This document shows positions 48,396-57,631 of a DNA stretch of 64,000 nucleotides, in pieces. The translations under genes and the position numbers were made by a program. Location of the stretch: positions 62,001 to 126,000 of the forward strand of contig NZ_JADOTV010000004.1 in assembly GCF_015767245.1 (NCBI RefSeq), read 5' to 3'. The notes beneath the pieces were generated by a model. The model was not told the origin of the DNA, ran no database searches, and saw only the letters and a list, made by a program, of their open reading frames with translations. The DNA comes from Aureivirga sp. CE67 (GTDB lineage Bacteria > Bacteroidota > Bacteroidia > Flavobacteriales > Flavobacteriaceae). Within the stretch, counting starts at the first letter, position 1; the number at the start of each line of letters is the position of its first letter.

Positions 48396-48989
48396 ATGAA
48401 TAAAGTAATTAAGAAAAAAGGAGTCACTTTTGGTATTATATTAGGAGCTTGCCTATCCTTGTTAACAATTTATAGCTACACAATAAATATTGGGTTATTA
48501 GTATCTCAATGGTTGTTTTTATTAACATTTGCAATTGTTTTAGTTGTAGGAATTTTAGCTATTGCATCAACAATTAAAGGGTTAGAAGGATTTATCACAT
48601 TCAAACAAGCTTTTTCATCTTATTTTATAACAATTGTGATTGGTTTTCTTATTCATATTTTAACTATTTCTTTAGTAGCTAAAATATTTCCAGAAAAAGA
48701 AATGGAGGTTATTGAATTGAGAATTTCTAGTTTAGATAAAATCAAAGAAGATAATTTAGCAAATCAAGCAAAGGCTTTGGAAACTGCAAAATCTGACGAA
48801 GAGAAAGAGCAAATTAAAGAAAGTTTCGGAAAACAGAGAACTGAAATAGAAACAATGAAAAAGAATAGTAGAAAAAGCCCTGGATTTAAAACATACATTC
48901 AAGCTTATGCTTCTTATTTAACTATATATTCTATTTTAGGATTGTTATTATCATTGATTTTAAGAAGAAAAAGACCTGAATTAAACTAA
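48396..48989 (+). CDS. DUF4199 membrane protein
   Basis: 197 residues with four spans, two near the N-terminus (residues 10-30, 36-58), one at 72-95 and one near 165-190. Between them is a charged helical stretch. DUF4199 proteins are common in Bacteroidota and untested. It lies 10 bases before the glycosyltransferase gene. Confidence 0.75.
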   Translation: MNKVIKKKGVTFGIILGACLSLLTIYSYTINIGLLVSQWLFLLTFAIVLVVGILAIASTIKGLEGFITFKQAFSSYFITIVIGFLIHILTISLVAKIFPEKEMEVIELRISSLDKIKEDNLANQAKALETAKSDEEKEQIKESFGKQRTEIETMKKNSRKSPGFKTYIQAYASYLTIYSILGLLLSLILRRKRPELN

Positions 48990-48999
48990 TTTTCTATTT

Positions 49000-49950
49000 A
49001 TGAATTTATCAATCGTTATTCCACTTCTTAATGAAGACGAATCTTTAAAGGAATTACATGATTGGATTGTGAAAGTAATGCAAGCCAATCAATATTCGTA
49101 TGAAATTATCTTCATAGATGATGGAAGTACGGATGATTCTTGGGAAGTGATTACGAAGCTTAAAGAAAAAAATCCGAATGTGAGAGCAATTCGCTTTTTA
49201 CGAAATTTCGGAAAATCTCAAGCTTTGCATGCAGCGTTTAAAGAAACAAGAGGAGATGTGATCATTACTATGGATGCAGATCTTCAAGATAGTCCAGATG
49301 AGATTCCAGAACTTTATGATATGATTGTAAAAGATGGGTATGATTTAGTTTCTGGGTGGAAGAAAAAACGTTATGATTCAGTTATTCGAAAAAATTTACC
49401 ATCTAAGTTATTTAATTGGGCAGCAAGAAAGACTTCAGGAGTACAATTAAATGATTTTAATTGTGGATTGAAATCATATCATAAAGATGTAGTGAAAAAT
49501 GTTGAGGTTTATGGAGAGATGCATCGATATGTCCCTGTACTTGCCAAAAATGCTGGTTTTTCTAAAATAGGAGAAAAGGTGGTAATTCATCAAGCTAGAA
49601 AATACGGAGTTTCTAAATTTGGAATAGATCGTTTTATCAATGGTTTTCTAGATTTAATCTCTATTTGGTTTTTAGCACGCTTTGGAAAAAGACCAATGCA
49701 TCTTTTTGGATTGATGGGAACAATTATGTTTATTGTAGGTTTGTTTGCAGCAGGTTTTATAGGAGCATTGAAGCTTTATAAACTATTTATAGGAGAAAAA
49801 GCAATTCTTATCACTGAGAATCCTTGGTTCTATATTGCATTAACTACAATGATTATAGGAACACAGTTATTCTTAGCAGGATTTATTGGAGAATTAGTGG
49901 TGAGAAATAAACCACATGAAACAAGATATAAGATTAAAGAAGTTATTTAA
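49000..49950 (+). CDS. Glycosyltransferase family 2, polyprenyl-phosphate type
   Basis: 316 residues. IVIPLLNEDESLKEL, FIDDGSTDDSWEVI and the DADLQDSPDEIPELY metal motif form the catalytic domain. Two C-terminal spans (about residues 233-255 and 270-297) match GtrB/DPM1-like enzymes, which put a sugar on undecaprenyl phosphate. It shares an operon with the DUF4199 gene. DUF4199-GT2 pairs are usual in flavobacteria. Confidence 0.87.
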   Translation: MNLSIVIPLLNEDESLKELHDWIVKVMQANQYSYEIIFIDDGSTDDSWEVITKLKEKNPNVRAIRFLRNFGKSQALHAAFKETRGDVIITMDADLQDSPDEIPELYDMIVKDGYDLVSGWKKKRYDSVIRKNLPSKLFNWAARKTSGVQLNDFNCGLKSYHKDVVKNVEVYGEMHRYVPVLAKNAGFSKIGEKVVIHQARKYGVSKFGIDRFINGFLDLISIWFLARFGKRPMHLFGLMGTIMFIVGLFAAGFIGALKLYKLFIGEKAILITENPWFYIALTTMIIGTQLFLAGFIGELVVRNKPHETRYKIKEVI

Positions 49951-49972
49951 TAATAACGTTTAATTAATATTT

Positions 49973-50017
49973 AAACCGTCTTTTGATTTATTCATAATCA
50001 AAAGACGGTTTTTTTAT
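49973..50017 (+). terminator. Intrinsic terminator
   Basis: A 16-bp stem AAACCGTCTTTTGATT with AATCAAAAGACGGTTT, then T7. It is the strongest terminator in the window and isolates the peptide locus from the genes before it. Confidence 0.9.
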
Positions 50018-50195
50018 TGTTTTATGTAAGGTTTTCTTGTGTTTTACAACTTTAAGTTATGAAAATGATATTTTAATATAAATAATATTTGTTAAAATAT
50101 AATAAATAGACATGTATTGTAGTTAATATAGTATTATAACATGTAAAAAAATGTTAAAAAAATAAAAATAACTTTTATTATAAAATATTTTATTC

Positions 50196-50203
50196 TATAT
50201 TTG
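50196..50203 (+). promoter_or_regulatory. Possible -7 element for peptide gene 1
   Basis: TATATTTG, 112 bases before the peptide 1 ATG. No clear TTG at the -33 place. The expected transcript would start near 50209 and carry the pseudoknot leader. Confidence 0.45.
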
Positions 50204-50248
50204 GAATAGAAGAAGAGTAAAAAAAAAGAAATTTTAAAATTGAAATGA

Positions 50249-50288
50249 TAAGACATAAAGCTTCAAGTGTCTTTAAATAAATTGAAGT
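50249..50288 (+). promoter_or_regulatory. Candidate pseudoknot leader of peptide gene 1
   Basis: AAGACA (50250-50255) can pair with TGTCTT (50268-50273). Inside that loop CTTCA (50261-50265) can pair with TGAAG (50283-50287). The crossing pairs make an H-type pseudoknot with loops of 5, 2 and 9 bases, and the last loop is TAAATAAAT. It ends 27 bases before the ATG. The same arrangement precedes peptide gene 2. Confidence 0.6.
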
Positions 50289-50314
50289 ATAACCAAAAAA
50301 TTAATATTTTAATT

Positions 50315-50467
50315 ATGAAAAAATTACAAAAATTATCAGGAGCTAAAACGTTAAACAAAAACGCTCAAAAGCAAATTAATGGTGGGAACTCTAACAGATG
50401 TATTGGAGGATGGTGTCCATCAACTGGAAATTGTGCACCATGTTTTGGTGAAGATCCAATCGGATAG
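50315..50467 (+). CDS. Double-glycine leader peptide precursor, four-Cys core, copy 1
   Basis: 50 residues from the ATG at 50315. A longer frame from 50267 lies in the leader and has no support. Residues 1-24 are a leader (MKKLQKLSGAKTL, then ...QINGG) of the kind cut by C39 exporters; it matches the Bacteroidota GG-leader family in style (TIGR04149-like). The 26-residue core has cysteines at core positions 5, 10, 16 and 19 (C-x4-C-x5-C-x2-C), is rich in Gly and Pro, and ends FGEDPIG. It is likely to be an exported disulfide peptide, a bacteriocin or signal. The exporter and an oxidase are downstream. Confidence 0.85.
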   Translation: MKKLQKLSGAKTLNKNAQKQINGGNSNRCIGGWCPSTGNCAPCFGEDPIG

Positions 50468-50487
50468 TATAATTTAAAATATTAAAC

Positions 50488-50519
50488 AAAATCTCTTACT
50501 GAAAAGTAAGAGATTTTTT
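50488..50519 (+). terminator. Intrinsic terminator after peptide gene 1
   Basis: Stem AAAATCTCTTACT with AGTAAGAGATTTT around GAAA, then T, 20 bases past the stop. Peptide 1 is therefore its own transcription unit. Confidence 0.85.
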
Positions 50520-50605
50520 AATTATATAATATTGTTAAAAATACAGTATTGATTTAAGATTAAAACTAAAAAACAATAAATAATGTATTTAAAATGTTAA
50601 AATAA

Positions 50606-50636
50606 TTGTTTTTTAATCTTTTTGTTTATATGTTTG
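50606..50636 (+). promoter_or_regulatory. Promoter of peptide gene 2
   Basis: TTG at 50606-50608, a 20-base spacer and TATGTTTG at 50629-50636, a full match to the Bacteroidota consensus. It predicts a leader of about 95 bases containing the pseudoknot. Confidence 0.65.
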
Positions 50637-50670
50637 TCAATATAAAATTGATTAGAATATCTAATTGCTA

Positions 50671-50713
50671 TAAGACATAAAACACTTCAGGTGTCTTAAA
50701 ATAAATTGAAGTG
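50671..50713 (+). promoter_or_regulatory. Candidate pseudoknot leader of peptide gene 2
   Basis: TAAGACA (50671-50677) pairs with TGTCTTA (50692-50698). Inside the loop CACTTCA (50683-50689) pairs with TGAAGTG (50707-50713). Compared with copy 1 both stems are longer, and the third loop keeps 8-9 bases rich in A. It ends 22 bases before the ATG. Confidence 0.6.
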
Positions 50714-50735
50714 AATTTCAAACTATATTTTAATT

Positions 50736-50888
50736 ATGAAAAAATTACAAAAATTATCAGGAGCTAAGACGTTAAACAAAAATGCTCAAAAAGAAATTAA
50801 TGGTGGGAACTCAAACTACTGTACAGGAGGATGGTGTCCTTCTACTGGAAGATGTTCACCTTGTTTTGGAGAAGACCCAATCGGATAA
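50736..50888 (+). CDS. Double-glycine leader peptide precursor, four-Cys core, copy 2
   Basis: 50 residues, too short to have been listed by simple ORF calling. The leader is identical to copy 1 except Gln 20 to Glu. The core has the same cysteine spacing and length with four substitutions (core R4Y, I6T, N15R, A17S). All four lie between or beside cysteines while the GGWCPSTG and PCFGEDPIG blocks are unchanged. The two genes are a tandem duplication with a period of 421 bases that includes leader and terminator. Confidence 0.85.
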   Translation: MKKLQKLSGAKTLNKNAQKEINGGNSNYCTGGWCPSTGRCSPCFGEDPIG

Positions 50889-50901
50889 CATAAAATTATT
50901 C

Positions 50902-50933
50902 AATATCCCTTGCTTTTAGTAAGGGATATTTTA
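50902..50933 (+). terminator. Intrinsic terminator after peptide gene 2
   Basis: Stem AATATCCCTT (50902-50911) with AAGGGATATT (50921-50930), then T. It differs in sequence from the peptide 1 terminator. Confidence 0.75.
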
Positions 50934-50957
50934 TTTAACAGTTATATCTAAAATTAA

Positions 50958-51116
50958 ATTGAAAAAATACAAAAATTAGCAGGAGCTAAGACTTTAAGTT
51001 GAGATGCTAAGAAAAAAATCGGTGGAGGTTAAACTACAATTTGTAGAAATGGTAAATGTCCTAATGGAGAATGTCAACCATGTTACCTAATGCCAATTGA
51101 AGATGTATTCGATTAG
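50958..51116 (+). pseudogene. Decayed third copy of the double-glycine peptide gene
   Basis: Reading from 50958 gives KIQKLAGAKTLS, a TGA (51000-51002), DAKKKIGGG, a TAA (51030-51032), then a core with cysteines spaced C-x4-C-x4-C-x2-C and an end VFD before TAG at 51114. There is no ATG: the start area reads ATTGAAAAAATA, as if ATG became TTG and one base was lost. The Cys spacing and leader show common origin with copies 1 and 2. It has no pseudoknot leader. Confidence 0.8.
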
Positions 51117-51397
51117 TAAAATTTAACTCATTTTTTTATTTCTGAAGGAATTATAAGAGTTCTTAGAAAGAAATGAAATTTGAATTTTAGAGCCTTTTCA
51201 AAATTAGAATAAGATATTTTTTTACTTAAGTTTAAATTATTATAATTTTATTTCAAATAGAATTGTATAATTTGCAAATATGTAAAATAGTATGATATTT
51301 TAACTTTGGTAAGGCTCTGTGTGATTATTATATACTATATTTTTCAATAATATTTTATTTATTAACAAACAATTTATTTTTAATATAGAAGTGCAAA

Positions 51398-52999
51398 ATG
51401 GAAGAAAATATTTTTAATTTGATTTATAAATTTTTAGAAATTTATGACATAAAAGTAGATAAAGAGGAAGTAAAGATGCAATTAATGACACATCCTGACT
51501 ATCCTTCTTTGTTTTCAATTACAGATTTATTTAATCATTTTAAGATAGAATCCAGTGCTTTTGAAGTTCCTGTGGAGCCAGAAACTCTTGATTATTTTGA
51601 AGATTCATTTTTAGCTCAGTTTAACAAAGGTCAAGATAAAATAATTGTACTTGTTAAAATAGAAAATGATGATTGGGAAGTATCAACAGATGGGAAAAAA
51701 TTTAAAAAAATAACTAAAGAAGTATTCCTAAAAATGTGGACAGGTATCTGTTTATTAATAGAGAAACCTGAATCTTTAGATATTTCTTCAAATAAAAAAA
51801 GTCTATTACCACTTTCTATAGCTTCTATTTTAATTCCTTTAGTATTAGTTTTTTCTTTTGGATTTAATTCAGGAATAGAATTTATAAATTTTGCTTTATT
51901 ACTTCTCGGAACTACACTTTCTGTGCTGATCGTTTTTCAAGAGTTGGAAATCAATTCTTACTTGGGAGATAAAATTTGTAATTCAGAAGATAATGTAGGT
52001 TGTAATTCTATTATTAAATCAAATTCAAAATTATTAGGTTTAAAATTAAGTGATCTTACTATTTTATTTTTCTCATCGTATTCACTTTTTTGGATAGCAA
52101 CGTCTTTTTTAGGTTTTGCTAATTATACTTTTCCACTAATTGTTGCTTTTTTAGGAATTCCTATTTCTCTTTATTCTCTATATGTTCAAAAGTTTGTTTT
52201 AAAAGATTGGTGTAAACTGTGTTTAGGAACTGTTGCAATATTATTTGCTCAAGCAGGATTATTTTATTTCATGTTTGGTGAATTTGTTTTTAATAAAGAA
52301 TTCTTTACATCAACATTAATCTTCGGAGTTTTCGGAATTATAAGTGCGGGAATCTGGTTTCCATTGAAAAAATTAATCAAGGACAAACAAGAATTGAAAA
52401 AAGCTTATATCTCAAATGCTAGATTTAAAAGAGATCATGAGGTATTTGATACTATATTTAAGCGTGAAGACGAATTACCAAAAGAAAATATTTCTAATGA
52501 AATTGTTTTAGGAAACCCAAATGGTTCTTTTGAGATTATGATGGTTACACATCCATTGTGTAAATATTGTAAGGAAAAACACGAGATTTTAGATAAAATT
52601 CTAGAACTAGATAATGAAAACATCAAAATCATTTTAAGATTTAATTCCTCAGCAGAATCTTTAACGCATGTCAGAGATATTATTCCTTTGAGATTGTTAG
52701 AAATTTATCATGAGCAACCAAATGATATAATGGAAGCGTTACATGATATTTTTGGTTATGATCATGAGCAAAATTATTGGGTTGAGAAATGGAATAAACC
52801 ATCAAAACCTCAATATTTACAAGTTTTAAAAGATGAAAAAGCTTGGTGTGATCAAAATGAGATCAACTTTACACCACTTCCAGTTATAAATGGTAGAAAA
52901 TTTCCTGAAAAATATGAATTTGAAGATATGTTGTACTTCATTGATGAAATGATTGAAGAAAGAGAAAATGAAGTTTCGCAATTATTATTTGTTTCTTAA
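51398..52999 (+). CDS. Pseudo-C39 / VKOR / thioredoxin fusion, probable thiol oxidase of the peptide locus
   Basis: 533 residues. Residues 1-125 look like a C39-like domain (HPDYPSLFSITDLFNHF) without the catalytic Cys. Residues 135-325 are a membrane VKOR domain with Cys 194 and 202 and a CKLC active site at 272-275. Residues 365-533 are a thioredoxin fold with CKYC at 388-391. VKOR-Trx fusions make disulfides in exported proteins using quinone. The place beside four-Cys peptides suggests it oxidises them, and the dead C39 domain may hold the leader. It lies 91 bases before the ABC exporter. Confidence 0.88.
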   Translation: MEENIFNLIYKFLEIYDIKVDKEEVKMQLMTHPDYPSLFSITDLFNHFKIESSAFEVPVEPETLDYFEDSFLAQFNKGQDKIIVLVKIENDDWEVSTDGKKFKKITKEVFLKMWTGICLLIEKPESLDISSNKKSLLPLSIASILIPLVLVFSFGFNSGIEFINFALLLLGTTLSVLIVFQELEINSYLGDKICNSEDNVGCNSIIKSNSKLLGLKLSDLTILFFSSYSLFWIATSFLGFANYTFPLIVAFLGIPISLYSLYVQKFVLKDWCKLCLGTVAILFAQAGLFYFMFGEFVFNKEFFTSTLIFGVFGIISAGIWFPLKKLIKDKQELKKAYISNARFKRDHEVFDTIFKREDELPKENISNEIVLGNPNGSFEIMMVTHPLCKYCKEKHEILDKILELDNENIKIILRFNSSAESLTHVRDIIPLRLLEIYHEQPNDIMEALHDIFGYDHEQNYWVEKWNKPSKPQYLQVLKDEKAWCDQNEINFTPLPVINGRKFPEKYEFEDMLYFIDEMIEERENEVSQLLFVS

Positions 53000-53090
53000 A
53001 TTTTTGAAATAATTTTAATAAGTGTGAAAAAATAATAAATTTGTTCTTATATAAAGTTAATTTATATTTTAAAGATAATAAATAAGATTT

Positions 53091-55298
53091 TTGAAAAGAT
53101 TTCCCCATTATACACAAGCTGAAAGAAAAGATTGTGGACCTACTTGTTTAAAGATTATCGGAAAACATTATGGTAAAACAATCCAGATTGAAAAACTTAG
53201 AGAATTAGCCAAAACAAATCGTGGAGATGGAAGTTTGTTATTTGGTTTAAGTGATGCAGCAGAAAAAATTGGTTTTAAAAGTACAGTTTATCAGCTTGAT
53301 TTTAATACTTTACTAGATGCACCTTTCCCTTTTATTGTTCATTGGGATAAGAAACATTATGTTGTAGTTTATGACATAAAGAAAAAAAGAAATGGTTATA
53401 AAATTTACATTTCCGATCCAGCTATTGGAAAATATACAGTAACAGAAAAGGAATTTATTAATCATTGGATTGATAGACATGCGGATGAAAATACAGAAGA
53501 CGGAATTTTACTTTTAATAGAGCCTTCGGAAGAATTTTATAAAATGAATTCGGAATATGAAAAAAGAAGTAAATCCGATTTTTCATTTGTTACTAGATAT
53601 TTCTTCAGATATAAAAAATATTTATTTCAGTTACTTCTTGGGTTGATGGTAGCGAGTATTCTACAAATAATCCTTCCTTTTTTAACGCAAAGTATTGTAG
53701 ATATTGGAATTCAAAACCAAGATATTAGTTTTGTATATTTAATGTTGATGGCTCAATTAGCAATCTTTTTAGGAAGAAGCTCAATTGAAATAATACGAAG
53801 CTGGCTTTTATTAAATATTGGTTCCAGAATTAATATTTCTATGATTTCGGACTTTATTTATAAATTAATGAAGCTTCCGATTTCTTATTTCCAAAAAGCT
53901 GCAATTGGAGATATGATTATGAAAATTAATGATCATGAAAGAATCAAAAAGTTAATTACAACTTCATTTTTAGATGTAATTCTTTCTATTTTCAATTTGT
54001 TAATCTTCGGATTTATTCTAGCATTTTTTAACTGGAAGATTTTTACAATATTCTTAATAGGAAGTATTTTCTATTTCCTATGGATTACTTTTTTCCTAAA
54101 ACGAAGAAAAAAATTAGATTATCTACTTTTTGCTCAAAGAAGTAGTGAACAAGATAAAGTTCATGAACTTTTATACGGAATGCAAGAAATAAAACTTCAC
54201 AATGCAGAAACAAAAATGCGTTGGAAGTGGGAATTTCAACAAGCAATTCTTTATAAAACAGCCATGAAAAGTTTGGTTTTAGAACAAACACAAAGTACTG
54301 GTTCTTCTTTTATAAATGAATTAAAAAACCTTTTGATTACGGTAGTTTCTGCTGCATTGGTGATTGAAGGAGAATTAACGCTGGGAACAATGTTGGCAAT
54401 TGCAAGTATTGTTGGTCAATTAAATGTTCCTGTTTTAAATCTGATTAATTTTATAAAAGATGCTCAAGATGCAAAGATTGCAATGGAACGACTTTTGGAA
54501 ATTCACAATACGCCAAATGAAACTCCAGATAACATGGAGCGAAATTTAGAGCTTCCAGAAAAAACAGATATCACGCTGAATAATATTACTTTTCAATATC
54601 CGAATAGTTATGATCCTGTAATTGAAAATTTGAACCTAAACATTCCTGCGAATAAAATTACTGCAATTGTAGGAACGAGTGGAAGTGGAAAAACAACATT
54701 ATTGAAACTACTTTTGAGTTTTTATAAAGTAAATAAAGGAAAGATTAAAGTTGGAGACATTGATTTAGAAAATATTGATCCGAAAGTTTGGAGAGAAAAC
54801 TGTGGAGTTGTAATGCAAGAAGGTTTTGTTTTTGATGAATCGATTGCCAAAAATATTGCGATTGGAGAAAATTATATTGATAAAAAACGATTAATTGAAG
54901 CTGTTACAGTTGCAAATATTCGAGAGTATATCGAAAGTCTTCCGTTAAATTATAACACCACTTTAGGTAGAGAAGGAGGAAGTTTGAGTACAGGACAAAA
55001 ACAACGATTATTGATTGCGAGAGCTGTTTATAAAAATCCAAAAATCTTATTTTTCGATGAGGCAACTTCTGCTTTAGATGCAAATAATGAGCGAATTATT
55101 ATGGATAATCTAAATCGTTTTTTTACAAATAAAACGGTAATTGTGATTGCACACAGGCTTAGTACGGTTAAAAATGCAGATCAGATTGTGGTTCTTGAAA
55201 AAGGAAAGATTGTAGAAGTAGGAACGCATGATGAGTTAGTTTATGCAGAAGGAAATTATTATCATTTAGTTAAAAATCAATTAGAGTTAGGAAGTTAA
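53091..55298 (+). CDS. Peptidase C39 ABC exporter (PCAT)
   Basis: 735 residues. The N-terminal C39 peptidase has Gln 9, Cys 15 (DCGPTC), His 89 (KKHYVVVY) and Asp 109 (ISDP), so the double-glycine protease is intact. Six spans follow (about 175-450). The ATPase has Walker A GTSGSGKTTLL, a signature LSTGQ in place of LSGGQ, Walker B ILFFDEATSALD and the H-loop IVIAHRLSTV. It should cut the GG leaders and export the cores. The start is TTG at 53091, chosen for N-terminal fit. It abuts the HlyD gene. Confidence 0.93.
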   Translation: MKRFPHYTQAERKDCGPTCLKIIGKHYGKTIQIEKLRELAKTNRGDGSLLFGLSDAAEKIGFKSTVYQLDFNTLLDAPFPFIVHWDKKHYVVVYDIKKKRNGYKIYISDPAIGKYTVTEKEFINHWIDRHADENTEDGILLLIEPSEEFYKMNSEYEKRSKSDFSFVTRYFFRYKKYLFQLLLGLMVASILQIILPFLTQSIVDIGIQNQDISFVYLMLMAQLAIFLGRSSIEIIRSWLLLNIGSRINISMISDFIYKLMKLPISYFQKAAIGDMIMKINDHERIKKLITTSFLDVILSIFNLLIFGFILAFFNWKIFTIFLIGSIFYFLWITFFLKRRKKLDYLLFAQRSSEQDKVHELLYGMQEIKLHNAETKMRWKWEFQQAILYKTAMKSLVLEQTQSTGSSFINELKNLLITVVSAALVIEGELTLGTMLAIASIVGQLNVPVLNLINFIKDAQDAKIAMERLLEIHNTPNETPDNMERNLELPEKTDITLNNITFQYPNSYDPVIENLNLNIPANKITAIVGTSGSGKTTLLKLLLSFYKVNKGKIKVGDIDLENIDPKVWRENCGVVMQEGFVFDESIAKNIAIGENYIDKKRLIEAVTVANIREYIESLPLNYNTTLGREGGSLSTGQKQRLLIARAVYKNPKILFFDEATSALDANNERIIMDNLNRFFTNKTVIVIAHRLSTVKNADQIVVLEKGKIVEVGTHDELVYAEGNYYHLVKNQLELGS

Positions 55299-56603
55299 AT
55301 GCCATTACAAGAAGACGACATAGAGTTAAGAAGCGAAGAAATTCGTGAGATATTAGAAGATGTTCCACATGCTTTTCTTAGGTGGGGAAATTCTATTTTA
55401 TTTATTACAGTGTTTCTTTTGTTGGCACTGACTTGGTTTATAAAATATCCAGATAAAATTGCTGGAGAAGCAACGCTTACAACGGAAATTCCACCAGAGA
55501 AAATTTACACAAAAATTACGTCGAATATTGATACGATTTTTGTTTCTAATAATAGCGAAGTTCAGAAAAATAGTGTGCTTGCTGTTTTAGAAAATAGTGG
55601 AGATTATCATGATATTTTTAAACTTAAAAAAATAGTAGATACTGTAAAATCGAACAAAGCACATTTTTATTTTCCTTTTGAAAGATTAGATCCAATGTTG
55701 TTGGGTGAAGTAAATAATGCTTTCGAGGTTTTTGAAACGAATTATACTAATTATATTCTTCATCAAAAATTACATCCTTATGAAGGTGATTTTCTTGCCA
55801 TAAAAGAAGAGATTTTTCAAGCAAATCAACAGTTGAACACTTTTTACACACAAAAAGAATTGCAACAAAAAGAGTTGAATTTTCAGAAAAAAGAATTGGA
55901 AAGAAATAAAAAACTTCATGATAAAGGAATTATTTCTACACAAGAATATGAGAAAAAACAATTGGAGTTTTTAAATTTTGAAAAGCAGTTTAAATCAATA
56001 AATAACGACATTTCAGCTGTAAAACAAAGATTGGCTACTATTGATAAAAACTCAAAATCTACTGAAATTCGTAAAATTCAAGATGATACGCAGCTGCGTA
56101 AAAAAGTTGTACAATCTTTCAATAATTTAAAAAGAGCAATTAAAGATTGGGAACTAAAATATGTGTTGAAATCTTCGATTCACGGACAAGTTTCTTTTTT
56201 AAATATTTGGCATGAAAATCAGAATTTAAAACAAGGAGATTTGGTTTTCCATATTTTACCAATCGAAAAATCTGTGTATATCAGTAAGATTCAGATTCCA
56301 AGAAGAAATTCTGGTAAAATTAGAATTGGTCAGAAGGTTTTGATGAAATTGGATAATTTTCCTTATAACGAATTTGGAATGTTGATCGGAAATGTACAAT
56401 CGATTTCTAAAATTCCGGATAACTCTGGGAATTACCATATTGATGTAGTTATTGCTAATGATAAACTGATTACAAACTATAAAAAAGAGATTCCTTTTCA
56501 GCAAGAAATGAAAGGAACTGCGGAAATTATTACAGATGATTTACGTCTTTTAGAAAGAGTTTTTTATCAGTTCAAAAAATTAACATCGAATAACAATATT
56601 TAA
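55299..56603 (+). CDS. HlyD family secretion adaptor
   Basis: 434 residues. A short cytoplasmic N-terminus, one span (about residues 30-49), a lipoyl-like half (TKITSNIDTIFVSNNSEVQKNSVLAVLENSG), a long coiled coil (about 165-270) and a beta-barrel end with VFHILPIEKSVYISKIQIP. It bridges the ABC exporter to an outer-membrane channel. The start directly abuts the exporter stop. No TolC-type gene is in the window, so that partner must be shared or elsewhere. Confidence 0.92.
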   Translation: MPLQEDDIELRSEEIREILEDVPHAFLRWGNSILFITVFLLLALTWFIKYPDKIAGEATLTTEIPPEKIYTKITSNIDTIFVSNNSEVQKNSVLAVLENSGDYHDIFKLKKIVDTVKSNKAHFYFPFERLDPMLLGEVNNAFEVFETNYTNYILHQKLHPYEGDFLAIKEEIFQANQQLNTFYTQKELQQKELNFQKKELERNKKLHDKGIISTQEYEKKQLEFLNFEKQFKSINNDISAVKQRLATIDKNSKSTEIRKIQDDTQLRKKVVQSFNNLKRAIKDWELKYVLKSSIHGQVSFLNIWHENQNLKQGDLVFHILPIEKSVYISKIQIPRRNSGKIRIGQKVLMKLDNFPYNEFGMLIGNVQSISKIPDNSGNYHIDVVIANDKLITNYKKEIPFQQEMKGTAEIITDDLRLLERVFYQFKKLTSNNNI

Positions 56604-56621
56604 GCTTATTCAGTTTAAGTA

Positions 56622-56652
56622 TTGTTTATTTTTCAAAATCATACTACATTTG
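56622..56652 (+). promoter_or_regulatory. Promoter of the Cys/His-rich protein gene
   Basis: TTG at 56622-56624, a 20-base spacer and TACATTTG at 56645-56652, a full consensus match. It lies 24 bases before the ATG, so this gene starts a new unit after the secretion genes. Confidence 0.65.
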
Positions 56653-56676
56653 CGTGCTTTTATTTTTGAATAAACA

Positions 56677-57072
56677 ATGAAATCACAAATAGCAGGAATT
56701 TTTTTTTACATACTTTATTTTGTCGCAATGGTTCGACCAATTGTGCCTGTATTGGAGTATCATGTAAATAAAGATTATATTGTTTCTGTTTTGTGTGAAA
56801 ACCGAAATAAGCCAGCTTTGGCTTGTAATGGAAAATGTTATTTGAAAAAGCAGATGCACAAAGCTTATCATGTAGATCATGATGAAGATAATCATAATCA
56901 TGATCACACAGGGTTACCTGAAATTGATATGTCAAAGTATCCTGTAAGTCTTCTAGATTTTGCTATAATTCAAATAAAAAGACCTAAAACATCTCTTGAA
57001 AACCCCAGTTTCGCAAGAGAACTAGCCTATTTTAATCTCATTTACGATTTAGACAAACCACCAATTTCTTAA
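56677..57072 (+). CDS. Small Cys/His-rich membrane protein, probably metal-related
   Basis: 131 residues. One N-terminal span (about residues 5-25, with RPIVPV) and then an extracytoplasmic part with Cys 40, Cys 50 and Cys 54 (LACNGKCYLKKQMHK) and a His cluster at 61-77 (VDHDEDNHNHDH). The CNGKC motif followed by a TonB receptor is a pattern I know from other Bacteroidota, where a link with copper or other metals is suspected. No enzyme motif is seen. Confidence 0.7.
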   Translation: MKSQIAGIFFYILYFVAMVRPIVPVLEYHVNKDYIVSVLCENRNKPALACNGKCYLKKQMHKAYHVDHDEDNHNHDHTGLPEIDMSKYPVSLLDFAIIQIKRPKTSLENPSFARELAYFNLIYDLDKPPIS

Positions 57073-57138
57073 TATAGATTTATTTTCAAGATTAAACATT
57101 ATCACGATTGATTTTGTATAATAGCATTCAGTTTATCA

Positions 57139-57171
57139 AGTTCCCCTCTTGAGAGGGGTTAGGGGTGTGTT
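57139..57171 (+). repeat. GC-rich dispersed repeat, copy A
   Basis: TTCCCCTCTTGAGAGGGG then TTAGGGGTGTGT. It is palindromic in its first half (CCCCTCTTGAGAGGGG). Copies B (57349-57378) and C (59981-60015) are related. Its GC content is far above the surroundings. Confidence 0.7.
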
Positions 57172-57348
57172 TTTTATGAAACAAAATTCCCTCATAAGAT
57201 TTTAATCGTGATAATGACTATTATAAATTAGAAGTATTTTCCTATTTCTAAGAATAGTTATGCCTTGAAATTAACATCTATAATCTACAAAATGGGAAGT
57301 TTACAAGTGAATTAAATTTAATATTACAATTATTTACAGACTTACAAA

Positions 57349-57378
57349 TTCCCCTCTCGAGAGAGGCTAGAGGTGTGT
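57349..57378 (+). repeat. GC-rich dispersed repeat, copy B
   Basis: TTCCCCTCTCGAGAGAGG then CTAGAGGTGTGT. Same layout as copy A with changes in the stem (CTCTCGAGAG) and loop. Confidence 0.65.
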
Positions 57379-57631
57379 AATTCAATAAATAACCTACTTT
57401 GTAAAAAGACAAATTTCCCAAACAACTACAAAGAAATTTTAATTAAAAAACAATAAAACCATATTGATTTTTTTAAAGTGAAAATTAATTGCTGTCGCGA
57501 GTTTGTAACTCGTGACTATACTAATATGAATGTATTTTATAAAAGTATTCTAGATTATTTTTCTGAAAATCGATAACGGTTATAAATATTGAAAACAAAA
57601 AGATTTTCAATACGTCAAATCGTACTCAAAA

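Follow-up and report, generated by a model that had tools for sequence, protein, structure and literature searches.

What is made by a locus in which two short, cysteine-bearing peptides, each with a leader ending in two glycines (GG), are encoded ahead of a membrane oxidase and a peptide exporter, and how would such peptides be matured? The question is raised by a stretch of 64,000 nucleotides (nt) from Aureivirga sp. CE67 (contig NZ_JADOTV010000004.1), hereafter the window. Comparison of the locus with its relatives suggests that it is probably dedicated to the production and secretion of small peptides rich in disulfides, and most likely resembles a bacteriocin system. The kit recurs in many related bacteria, with changing peptides and a common pseudoknot RNA in front of them. 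The features of the window locus are the following.

50250-50287, forward strand: H-type pseudoknot in the 5' untranslated region (UTR) of precursor 1, with stem P1 (AGACA 50251-50255 with TGTCT 50268-50272) and stem P2 (CTTCAA 50261-50266 with TTGAAG 50282-50287); matched by RNA model R1 at 50229-50294 (39.9 bits, E 1.7e-6), and a seed of the model
50315-50467, forward strand, stop included: precursor 1, leader 50315-50386 ending in GG, core 50387-50464 with four Cys; from open reading frame and pattern
50488-50517, forward strand: terminator-like hairpin 3' of precursor 1
50672-50713, forward strand: H-type pseudoknot in the 5' UTR of precursor 2, with P1 (AGACA 50673-50677 with TGTCT 50692-50696) and P2 (CACTTCA 50683-50689 with TGAAGTG 50707-50713); matched by R1 at 50654-50718 (37.7 bits, E 6.9e-6), and a seed of the model
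50736-50888, forward strand, stop included: precursor 2, leader 50736-50807 ending in GG, core 50808-50885 with four Cys; from open reading frame and pattern
50902-50930, forward strand: terminator-like hairpin 3' of precursor 2
about 50961-51118, forward strand: decayed third precursor with two in-frame stops and no ATG in place; from alignment
51398-52999, forward strand: fusion oxidase, with C39-like (residues 1-126, apparently peptidase-dead), VKOR (158-299) and DsbA-like (357-522) domains and six predicted membrane helices; from Pfam, a structural model and fold matches
53091-55298, forward strand: C39 peptidase-containing ABC exporter, with TTG as mechanical start; from Pfam and alignment
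55299-56603, forward strand: HlyD-type periplasmic adaptor; from Pfam/NCBIfam

Both precursors are 50 residues long, with a 24-residue leader and a 26-residue core that starts NSN(R/Y)C(I/T)GGWC and spaces its cysteines as C-x4-C-x5-C-x2-C; they are 90% identical in protein and 88% identical in DNA over 169 nt. The calculated average masses of the two cores are about 2656 and 2709 Da. The third copy carries one TGA and one TAA in frame and lacks an ATG where the other two have theirs. In a congener, a diverged four-Cys precursor was found directly upstream of the fusion, and five terminator-like sites were counted in the region of the window, versus 1.3 in shuffles. An earlier note on this DNA had already described the two precursors and the decayed copy. 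The lengths and Cys spacing that it gave for the precursors were verified here, as were the intact catalytic residues of the exporter (Gln9, Cys15, His89 and Asp109, in alignment) and the stop-to-start junction with HlyD, whose gene begins at the base right after the exporter stop (55299 after 55298). The note had also seen no modification enzyme other than the oxidase, and none was recognised beside the window operon. Neither precursor reached threshold with any of the listed Pfam and NCBIfam models, among them PF14406 Bacteroid_pep (16.8 and 19.5 bits; curated cut-off 25) and NF047798 leader_Chryseo (12.4 and 12.6 bits; curated cut-off 23.5). When 44 sequences drawn from many loci were searched (one is in fact a piece of an exporter), the best-covering models reached 8 (NCBIfam) and 6 (Pfam) of them at E 0.1.

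The third intact gene had been called a VKOR/thioredoxin fusion in the earlier note; both of these domains were found at 51398-52999, together with an N-terminal C39-like domain that had been overlooked. Pfam assigned C39 (13-125), VKOR (165-286) and Thioredoxin_4 (367-517) to the protein, all above cut-off (for VKOR, PF07884, 42.7 bits vs. 27.5). In an alignment of the window fusion with 111 others (112 sequences, duplicates included), VKOR loop Cys 194 and 202, C272-x-x-C275, C388-x-x-C391 and the cis-proline Pro493 were invariant, and in an alignment of 75 exporters, also including duplicates, the catalytic Gln and Cys were retained in 74 (one row was gapped) and the His and Asp in all 75. 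In an AlphaFold2 model of the fusion (35 sequences; mean predicted local distance difference test score 81.4, predicted template modelling score 0.52), residues 1-126 matched the C39 domains of PCAT1 (Z 13.9), ComA (Z 13.3) and LahT with bound leader (6mpz; Z 13.3), residues 158-299 matched VKOR (Z 12.5) and residues 357-522 matched ScsC (Z 17.8), the best fold matches of this DsbA-like domain being ScsC, BdbD and DsbA. The N-terminal domain aligned with the C39 domain of the exporter (96% probability) only from exporter residue 31, past Gln9 and Cys15, and neither a His at the place of His89 nor a conserved Cys was found in this alignment and the 112 fusions; to judge from its sequence, the domain is peptidase-dead. 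Such a dead C39 fold is a known means of recruiting substrate without cutting, and LahT binds leader positions -12 and -4, as described in PMC6363468. Because the N-terminal domain matches leader-bound LahT, and because the leaders of the family carry Leu at -12 (307 of 339 distinct precursors) and Ile or Val at -4 (322/339), it is proposed that this domain may dock the leader.

The fusion was present in 21 of 149 Flavobacteriaceae genomes, the source genome included, and was found by profile in 41 of 395 Bacteroidota genomes. A second scan yielded 152 relatives, and the best 80 of these, which were kept, included named Tenacibaculum, Aquimarina, Winogradskyella, Lacinutrix, Dokdonia and others, as well as assemblies labelled Bacteroidales, Cyclobacteriaceae and Saprospiraceae; a contig scan that used just the window fusion as query gave no relatives. 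A first alignment (A1) was too diverse for patterns and was replaced by a tighter one (A2). From 110 loci, six duplicates were dropped, leaving 106 distinct fusions (the window's included) at 104 loci, all in Bacteroidota; L065 and L091 carry two fusions each, and some of their coordinates are off in several counts, in which one fusion was kept per locus. A C39 exporter followed on the same strand in 70 of the 106 distinct fusions, 68 of them also with HlyD, and one further fusion had exporter and HlyD elsewhere on its strand. GG precursors were found at 93 of the 104 loci. Near fusions without a nearby exporter, opposite-strand GG peptides with YYCANVNP-like cores were observed at L059, L062 and L063. 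In a Parabacteroides distasonis plasmid record (L212:3238-5789), separate genes for a C39 domain and a thioredoxin domain follow a six-bladed beta-propeller gene; this pair is perhaps a split relative of the fusion.

In order to characterize the cargo, same-strand GG-leader open frames were collected between -1.5 and +7.5 kb relative to the start of the fusion, which gave 348 frames at 93 loci (11 loci had none by pattern) and 339 distinct cores, with leaders of 22-25 residues in 329 of the distinct precursors. Cores with four, six and eight Cys numbered 132, 146 and 22, respectively, the others having none (2), one (1), two (3), three (2), five (13) or seven (18). An even count was found in 303 of the 336 distinct cores with at least two Cys, versus 51% expected from composition-matched draws, and in 79 of 92 when one core was taken per locus. 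On the opposite strand of these loci, just 19 distinct candidates were found. The Cys arrangement of the family is beyond chance. A strict fixed Cys framework was ruled out by the 90 spacings found in the 132 four-Cys cores. The cores fell into 149 similarity clusters, and the window's two matched no other core.

Whether such peptides accompany the oxidase or the exporter was addressed with 20 control loci carrying the same exporter type (43-62% identical) and no adjoining fusion, 8 of them from genomes with fusions elsewhere. Their 16 same-strand GG peptides had zero (8), one (2) or two (6) Cys and in no case four or more, and the pseudoknot RNA was present at 1 of the 20 loci. Since the control loci were nearly free of Cys-rich peptides, these go mainly with the oxidase rather than with the exporter. 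The even-Cys rule and the conserved active-site residues thus lend good comparative support to the proposal of the earlier note that the oxidase would form the disulfides and the exporter would cut and secrete the peptide. The note had taken widespread core homologues lacking an adjoining exporter or oxidase as a sign against that proposal; stray copies only were found, namely a single orphan in the source genome and a scattering in other genomes. The orphan, a fourth precursor on another contig of the same genome (L005:8783-8938, reverse strand), has four Cys spaced C-x6-C-x4-C-x3-C; no exporter or oxidase was recognised in the reading frames about 4-5 kb to either side, and the pseudoknot model gave no match there. 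The leader and the machinery are conserved while the cargo turns over as cassettes: among three operon copies of one genome (L041, L042 and L043), fusion genes are 97.6-99.7% and exporter genes 96.4-99.8% identical, yet the copies differ at three positions in whether a precursor cassette (pseudoknot, leader, core and, in many cases, a hairpin) is there. These copies are useful for studying cargo turnover.

The side of the membrane on which the Cys would be paired was evaluated from hydropathy and charge. Averaged hydropathy gave six helices in the fusion, whereas a canonical VKOR has five, and six would place the N-terminal and DsbA-like domains on one side. Mean Lys plus Arg counts were 2.25, 4.71, 2.04 and 7.20 in the four stretches on the active-site side and 0.22, 0.16 and 0.28 in the three opposite loops, with an excess on the active-site side in all 105 distinct fusions. 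Because these stretches are unequal in length, a fairer test against non-fusion VKORs was based on the six residues before the CxxC motif versus loops 2/3 plus 4/5: the 105 fusions averaged 1.90 vs. 0.64, the CxxC flank being larger in 88, while 13 non-fusion VKORs of the phylum (13 of 15 could be parsed, two were dropped) averaged 0.23 vs. 5.38, the flank being larger in one. The aligned Synechococcus VKOR has Lys and Arg in loops 2/3 and 4/5. Given the reversed charge pattern and the positive-inside rule, the leader-binding domain and the active sites probably face the cytoplasm, so that disulfides would form before a one-step export; an inverted VKOR has a precedent in the archaeon Aeropyrum pernix. 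It is somewhat unlikely that the fusion has the ordinary orientation and oxidises the cores in the periplasm after export, in which case the N-terminal C39-like domain would be periplasmic and no leader dock. Characterised VKOR-thioredoxin fusions do face the periplasm, and ScsC, BdbD and DsbA, the best fold matches mentioned above, work outside the cytoplasm. However, with six predicted helices the N-terminal domain comes to lie on the DsbA side, the charge pattern is reversed in every fusion, unlike in 12 of the 13 parsed non-fusion VKORs, and the exporter-HlyD route would bypass the periplasm, the leader being removed on the cytoplasmic side. The predicted cytoplasmic orientation fits both a leader dock and an exporter of this kind.

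As for the role of the peptides, it is unlikely that they are signals (pheromones) instead of toxins and that the operon serves peptide communication. A LytTR-type regulator family at 21 of the 104 loci and a tetratricopeptide repeat sensor-like family at 20, both mostly upstream of the fusion and with names read from sequence, would suit signalling, as would the fact that no immunity gene was recognised among the genes scanned around the window operon; on the other hand, no regulator was recognised beside the window locus, and the several different cores per operon of many relatives suit weapons better than one signal. A second response-regulator family, its name also read from sequence, was seen at 12 of the 104 loci, mostly upstream of the fusion, and a lipoprotein-like family near -950 at 11 loci.

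The element in front of the precursors consists of a hairpin with a YTCGCGA-type loop followed by an H-type pseudoknot, in which P1 is AGACA/TGTCT and P2 pairs the P1 loop with a downstream arm. In the window the outer hairpin is weak and both P1 and P2 are intact, and the congener has a different P2 sequence with pairing retained. Both stems were detected by pattern in front of 173 of 345 precursors with at least two Cys, at 78 of 92 loci, and a search of 40 relatives for P1 plus the following A-rich stretch gave four matches, three of them the precursors of the window's genus and the fourth G015. Model R1, which leaves out P2, was run on 100 of the 104 non-duplicate loci (L062, L063, L066 and L067 were left out) and gave 244 matches, both window sites included, one place (L143) being counted on both strands. 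Since its 45 seeds (A4) were picked partly for P2 pairing, counts from A4 are not independent; a further alignment (A5) was built from matches of the P2-free model, and 123 of its 150 rows come from outside the seed set. Among the best 150 of the 244 matches (145 distinct), P2 was paired in 96.0% of cells, with two-sided changes at all six pairs, and the covariation score of the whole structure was 0.316, versus 0.156 when shuffled (0 of 500 shuffles reached it) and at most 0.095 when slid. The 111 distinct non-seed matches had six P2 pairs in 88 cases, five in 16, four in 5 and two in 2, and 25 of 42 distinct non-seed P2 arm pairs were fully paired, versus a shuffled mean of 6.6. UTR folding energy alone gave z-scores of -1.71, -0.94 and -0.21, none of them convincing, and the case for an RNA is therefore based on covariation.

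For the best 150 matches, the next frame was a GG precursor in 137, a frame without the GG pattern in 6 and not clear in 7; in the 137, the end of the model lay 17-21 nt upstream of the start codon (10th-90th percentile; range 1-24). In 64 of the 150, no more than 30 nt separate the start of the match from a stop codon upstream, so that a promoter would hardly fit between. The promoter word TAnnTTTG occurs at 50196, 50629 and 51301 and was not enriched upstream of precursors (13 of 345, shuffle mean 34), so that no promoter is claimed. Assuming that both scans covered the same 149 Flavobacteriaceae genomes, the RNA (E 0.001) was present in 24 and the fusion in 21, with both in 17, the RNA alone in 7 and the fusion alone in 4 (Fisher p 1.8e-13). 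At 30 loci of the 79 genome matches, the RNA preceded a GG-type precursor in 28 (two broken, six with variant motifs), and a lipoprotein-like gene in one, the remaining case being unclear. At L196:1500-2106, the gene behind the pseudoknot (54.2 bits) is lipoprotein-like rather than a GG precursor, and possibly encodes an immunity protein. Proteins of about 290-390 residues resembling carboxypeptidase-regulatory-like outer-membrane proteins were seen after pseudoknot-led precursors at L183:1873-2763, L200:1859-2767, L201:1823-2716 and L204:980-2164 (reverse strand). No listed Rfam 15 match overlapped the motif in window positions 49000-57500 (E up to 10) or at four relative loci (E up to 5), and no description of the pseudoknot RNA was found in the open-access literature. 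That the pseudoknot is a DNA element (a recombination site or an operator) is decidedly unlikely: precursor cassettes do come and go between the near-identical operon copies, yet interleaved covarying stems, the near-fixed distance to the start codon and the frequent closeness to an upstream stop point to RNA.

It is highly improbable that the Cys bind metal or form thioethers, since a complete oxidase travels with the peptides, nothing beside the window operon was recognised as a modification enzyme and, although four Cys would also suit a metal site, so many spacings are ill-suited to a single one.

Taken as a disulfide-forming system, the locus would work as follows. The leader would dock on C39-type domains, and the dead C39-like domain would tether the leader-bearing precursor to the membrane VKOR-DsbA fusion, which would pair its Cys and pass the electrons to the quinone pool. 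Cleavage behind the GG would follow in the active C39 exporter, which, together with HlyD and a channel of the outer membrane encoded at another place, would release the 26-residue core; this core may have an antibacterial role. The pseudoknot in the 5' UTR of each precursor would probably control translation or stability of the message. Several observations weigh against this scheme. A downstream same-strand C39 exporter was missing in 36 of the 106 fusions in the stretch examined, and 35 of these had none elsewhere on that strand either (5 of them with short flanks); precursor homologues also exist as orphans; an odd Cys count was found in 33 of the 336 cores; and leader position -7 is Gln in 287 of the 339 precursors, not the Leu of LahT. 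The control loci have two blemishes. At L232 (7727-7791, reverse strand), the exporter has no fusion nearby and adjoins a pseudoknot-led precursor that the pattern did not catch, with five Cys and a leader of a variant GYG type, in a genome that carries fusions elsewhere; at L231, a GG candidate with eight Cys lies on the opposite strand. The predicted topology comes entirely from charge counts and hydropathy, the cytoplasm is reducing, so that oxidation there needs protection, and neither an outer-membrane channel nor, as noted, an immunity gene was recognised among the genes scanned around the window operon. We put forward only tentatively the fuller proposal of a new ribosomal peptide class, in which the sole modification would be leader-guided cytoplasmic disulfides, introduced by an inverted, quinone-linked VKOR-DsbA enzyme with its own leader dock before type I export of hypervariable cassette cores, with an undescribed pseudoknot controlling expression.

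Among known systems, the closest likeness is to bacteroidetocins (proposed class IIf; Coyne 2019, PMC6671954), which, in the main text of that report, are also short GG-leader four-Cys peptides of Bacteroidota encoded in one region with a thiol oxidoreductase and a C39 ABC exporter. Given this precedent and the wide occurrence of the fusion, the locus does not stand alone as a new system; the earlier note, which had called it a candidate new one, had overlooked the peptidase-dead domain, the probable facing of the fusion towards the cytoplasm and the pseudoknot. According to the same text (PMC6671954), bacteroidetocin leaders have 15-16 residues, versus 24 in the window; the peptide gene is adjoined by one for a five-transmembrane protein, whereas none lies next to the window precursors (a membrane-protein-like frame, 48396-48989, lies beyond a glycosyltransferase gene); the oxidase of the window is a single C39-like-VKOR-DsbA protein; and the word HlyD, a component of the window system, is absent from that main text. 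Bacteroidetocins kill Bacteroidota and target BamA. The two systems were compared by description, not by sequence. The Synechococcus VKOR-thioredoxin fusion (4nv2/4nv6) shares the VKOR fold, the four VKOR Cys and a fused thioredoxin-type domain; by comparison, the window fusion has an extra N-terminal C39-like domain, an extra helix, reversed charges, a DsbA/ScsC-like partner and a linkage to GG precursors. In class II GG bacteriocins and microcins, modification is slight and a C39 exporter cleaves behind the GG, joined by HlyD in Gram-negatives, while the window family adds a dedicated oxidase with a C39-like domain, hypervariable cores with even Cys counts and the pseudoknot UTR; the class IIa motif YGNGVxC near the N-terminus is absent from the window cores. 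Prochlorosins combine one leader type, many diverse cores and tolerant machinery. The same holds for Lah-type families, as described in PMC6363468. The product of both is lanthionine, whereas that of the window would be a disulfide, and no lanthionine synthetase was recognised beside the window operon. The C39-like domains of type I exporters also use a dead C39 fold to recruit substrate (same text, PMC6363468), and are fused to the transporter, while that of the window is fused to the oxidase. The system is best called a variant within the disulfide-bearing GG bacteriocin systems; it works like the bacteroidetocin system, with a leader length outside that description. No report of the fusion linked to GG peptides was found in the open-access literature, and the kit seems undescribed; if confirmed, the novelty would lie in a VKOR-DsbA enzyme that probably faces the cytoplasm and carries a C39-like dock, and in a substrate-tied pseudoknot RNA.

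If true, the scheme would explain how bacteria that export straight across both membranes deliver folded peptides, and it would provide a tolerant, leader-steered disulfide maker for peptide libraries, the range of which is made directly testable by the even-Cys rule over hundreds of natural cores. The pseudoknot is backed by covariation, has no Rfam match and has a clear gene association, so that its ligand or partner can be sought, and the cores constitute a large set of candidate antimicrobials or signals.

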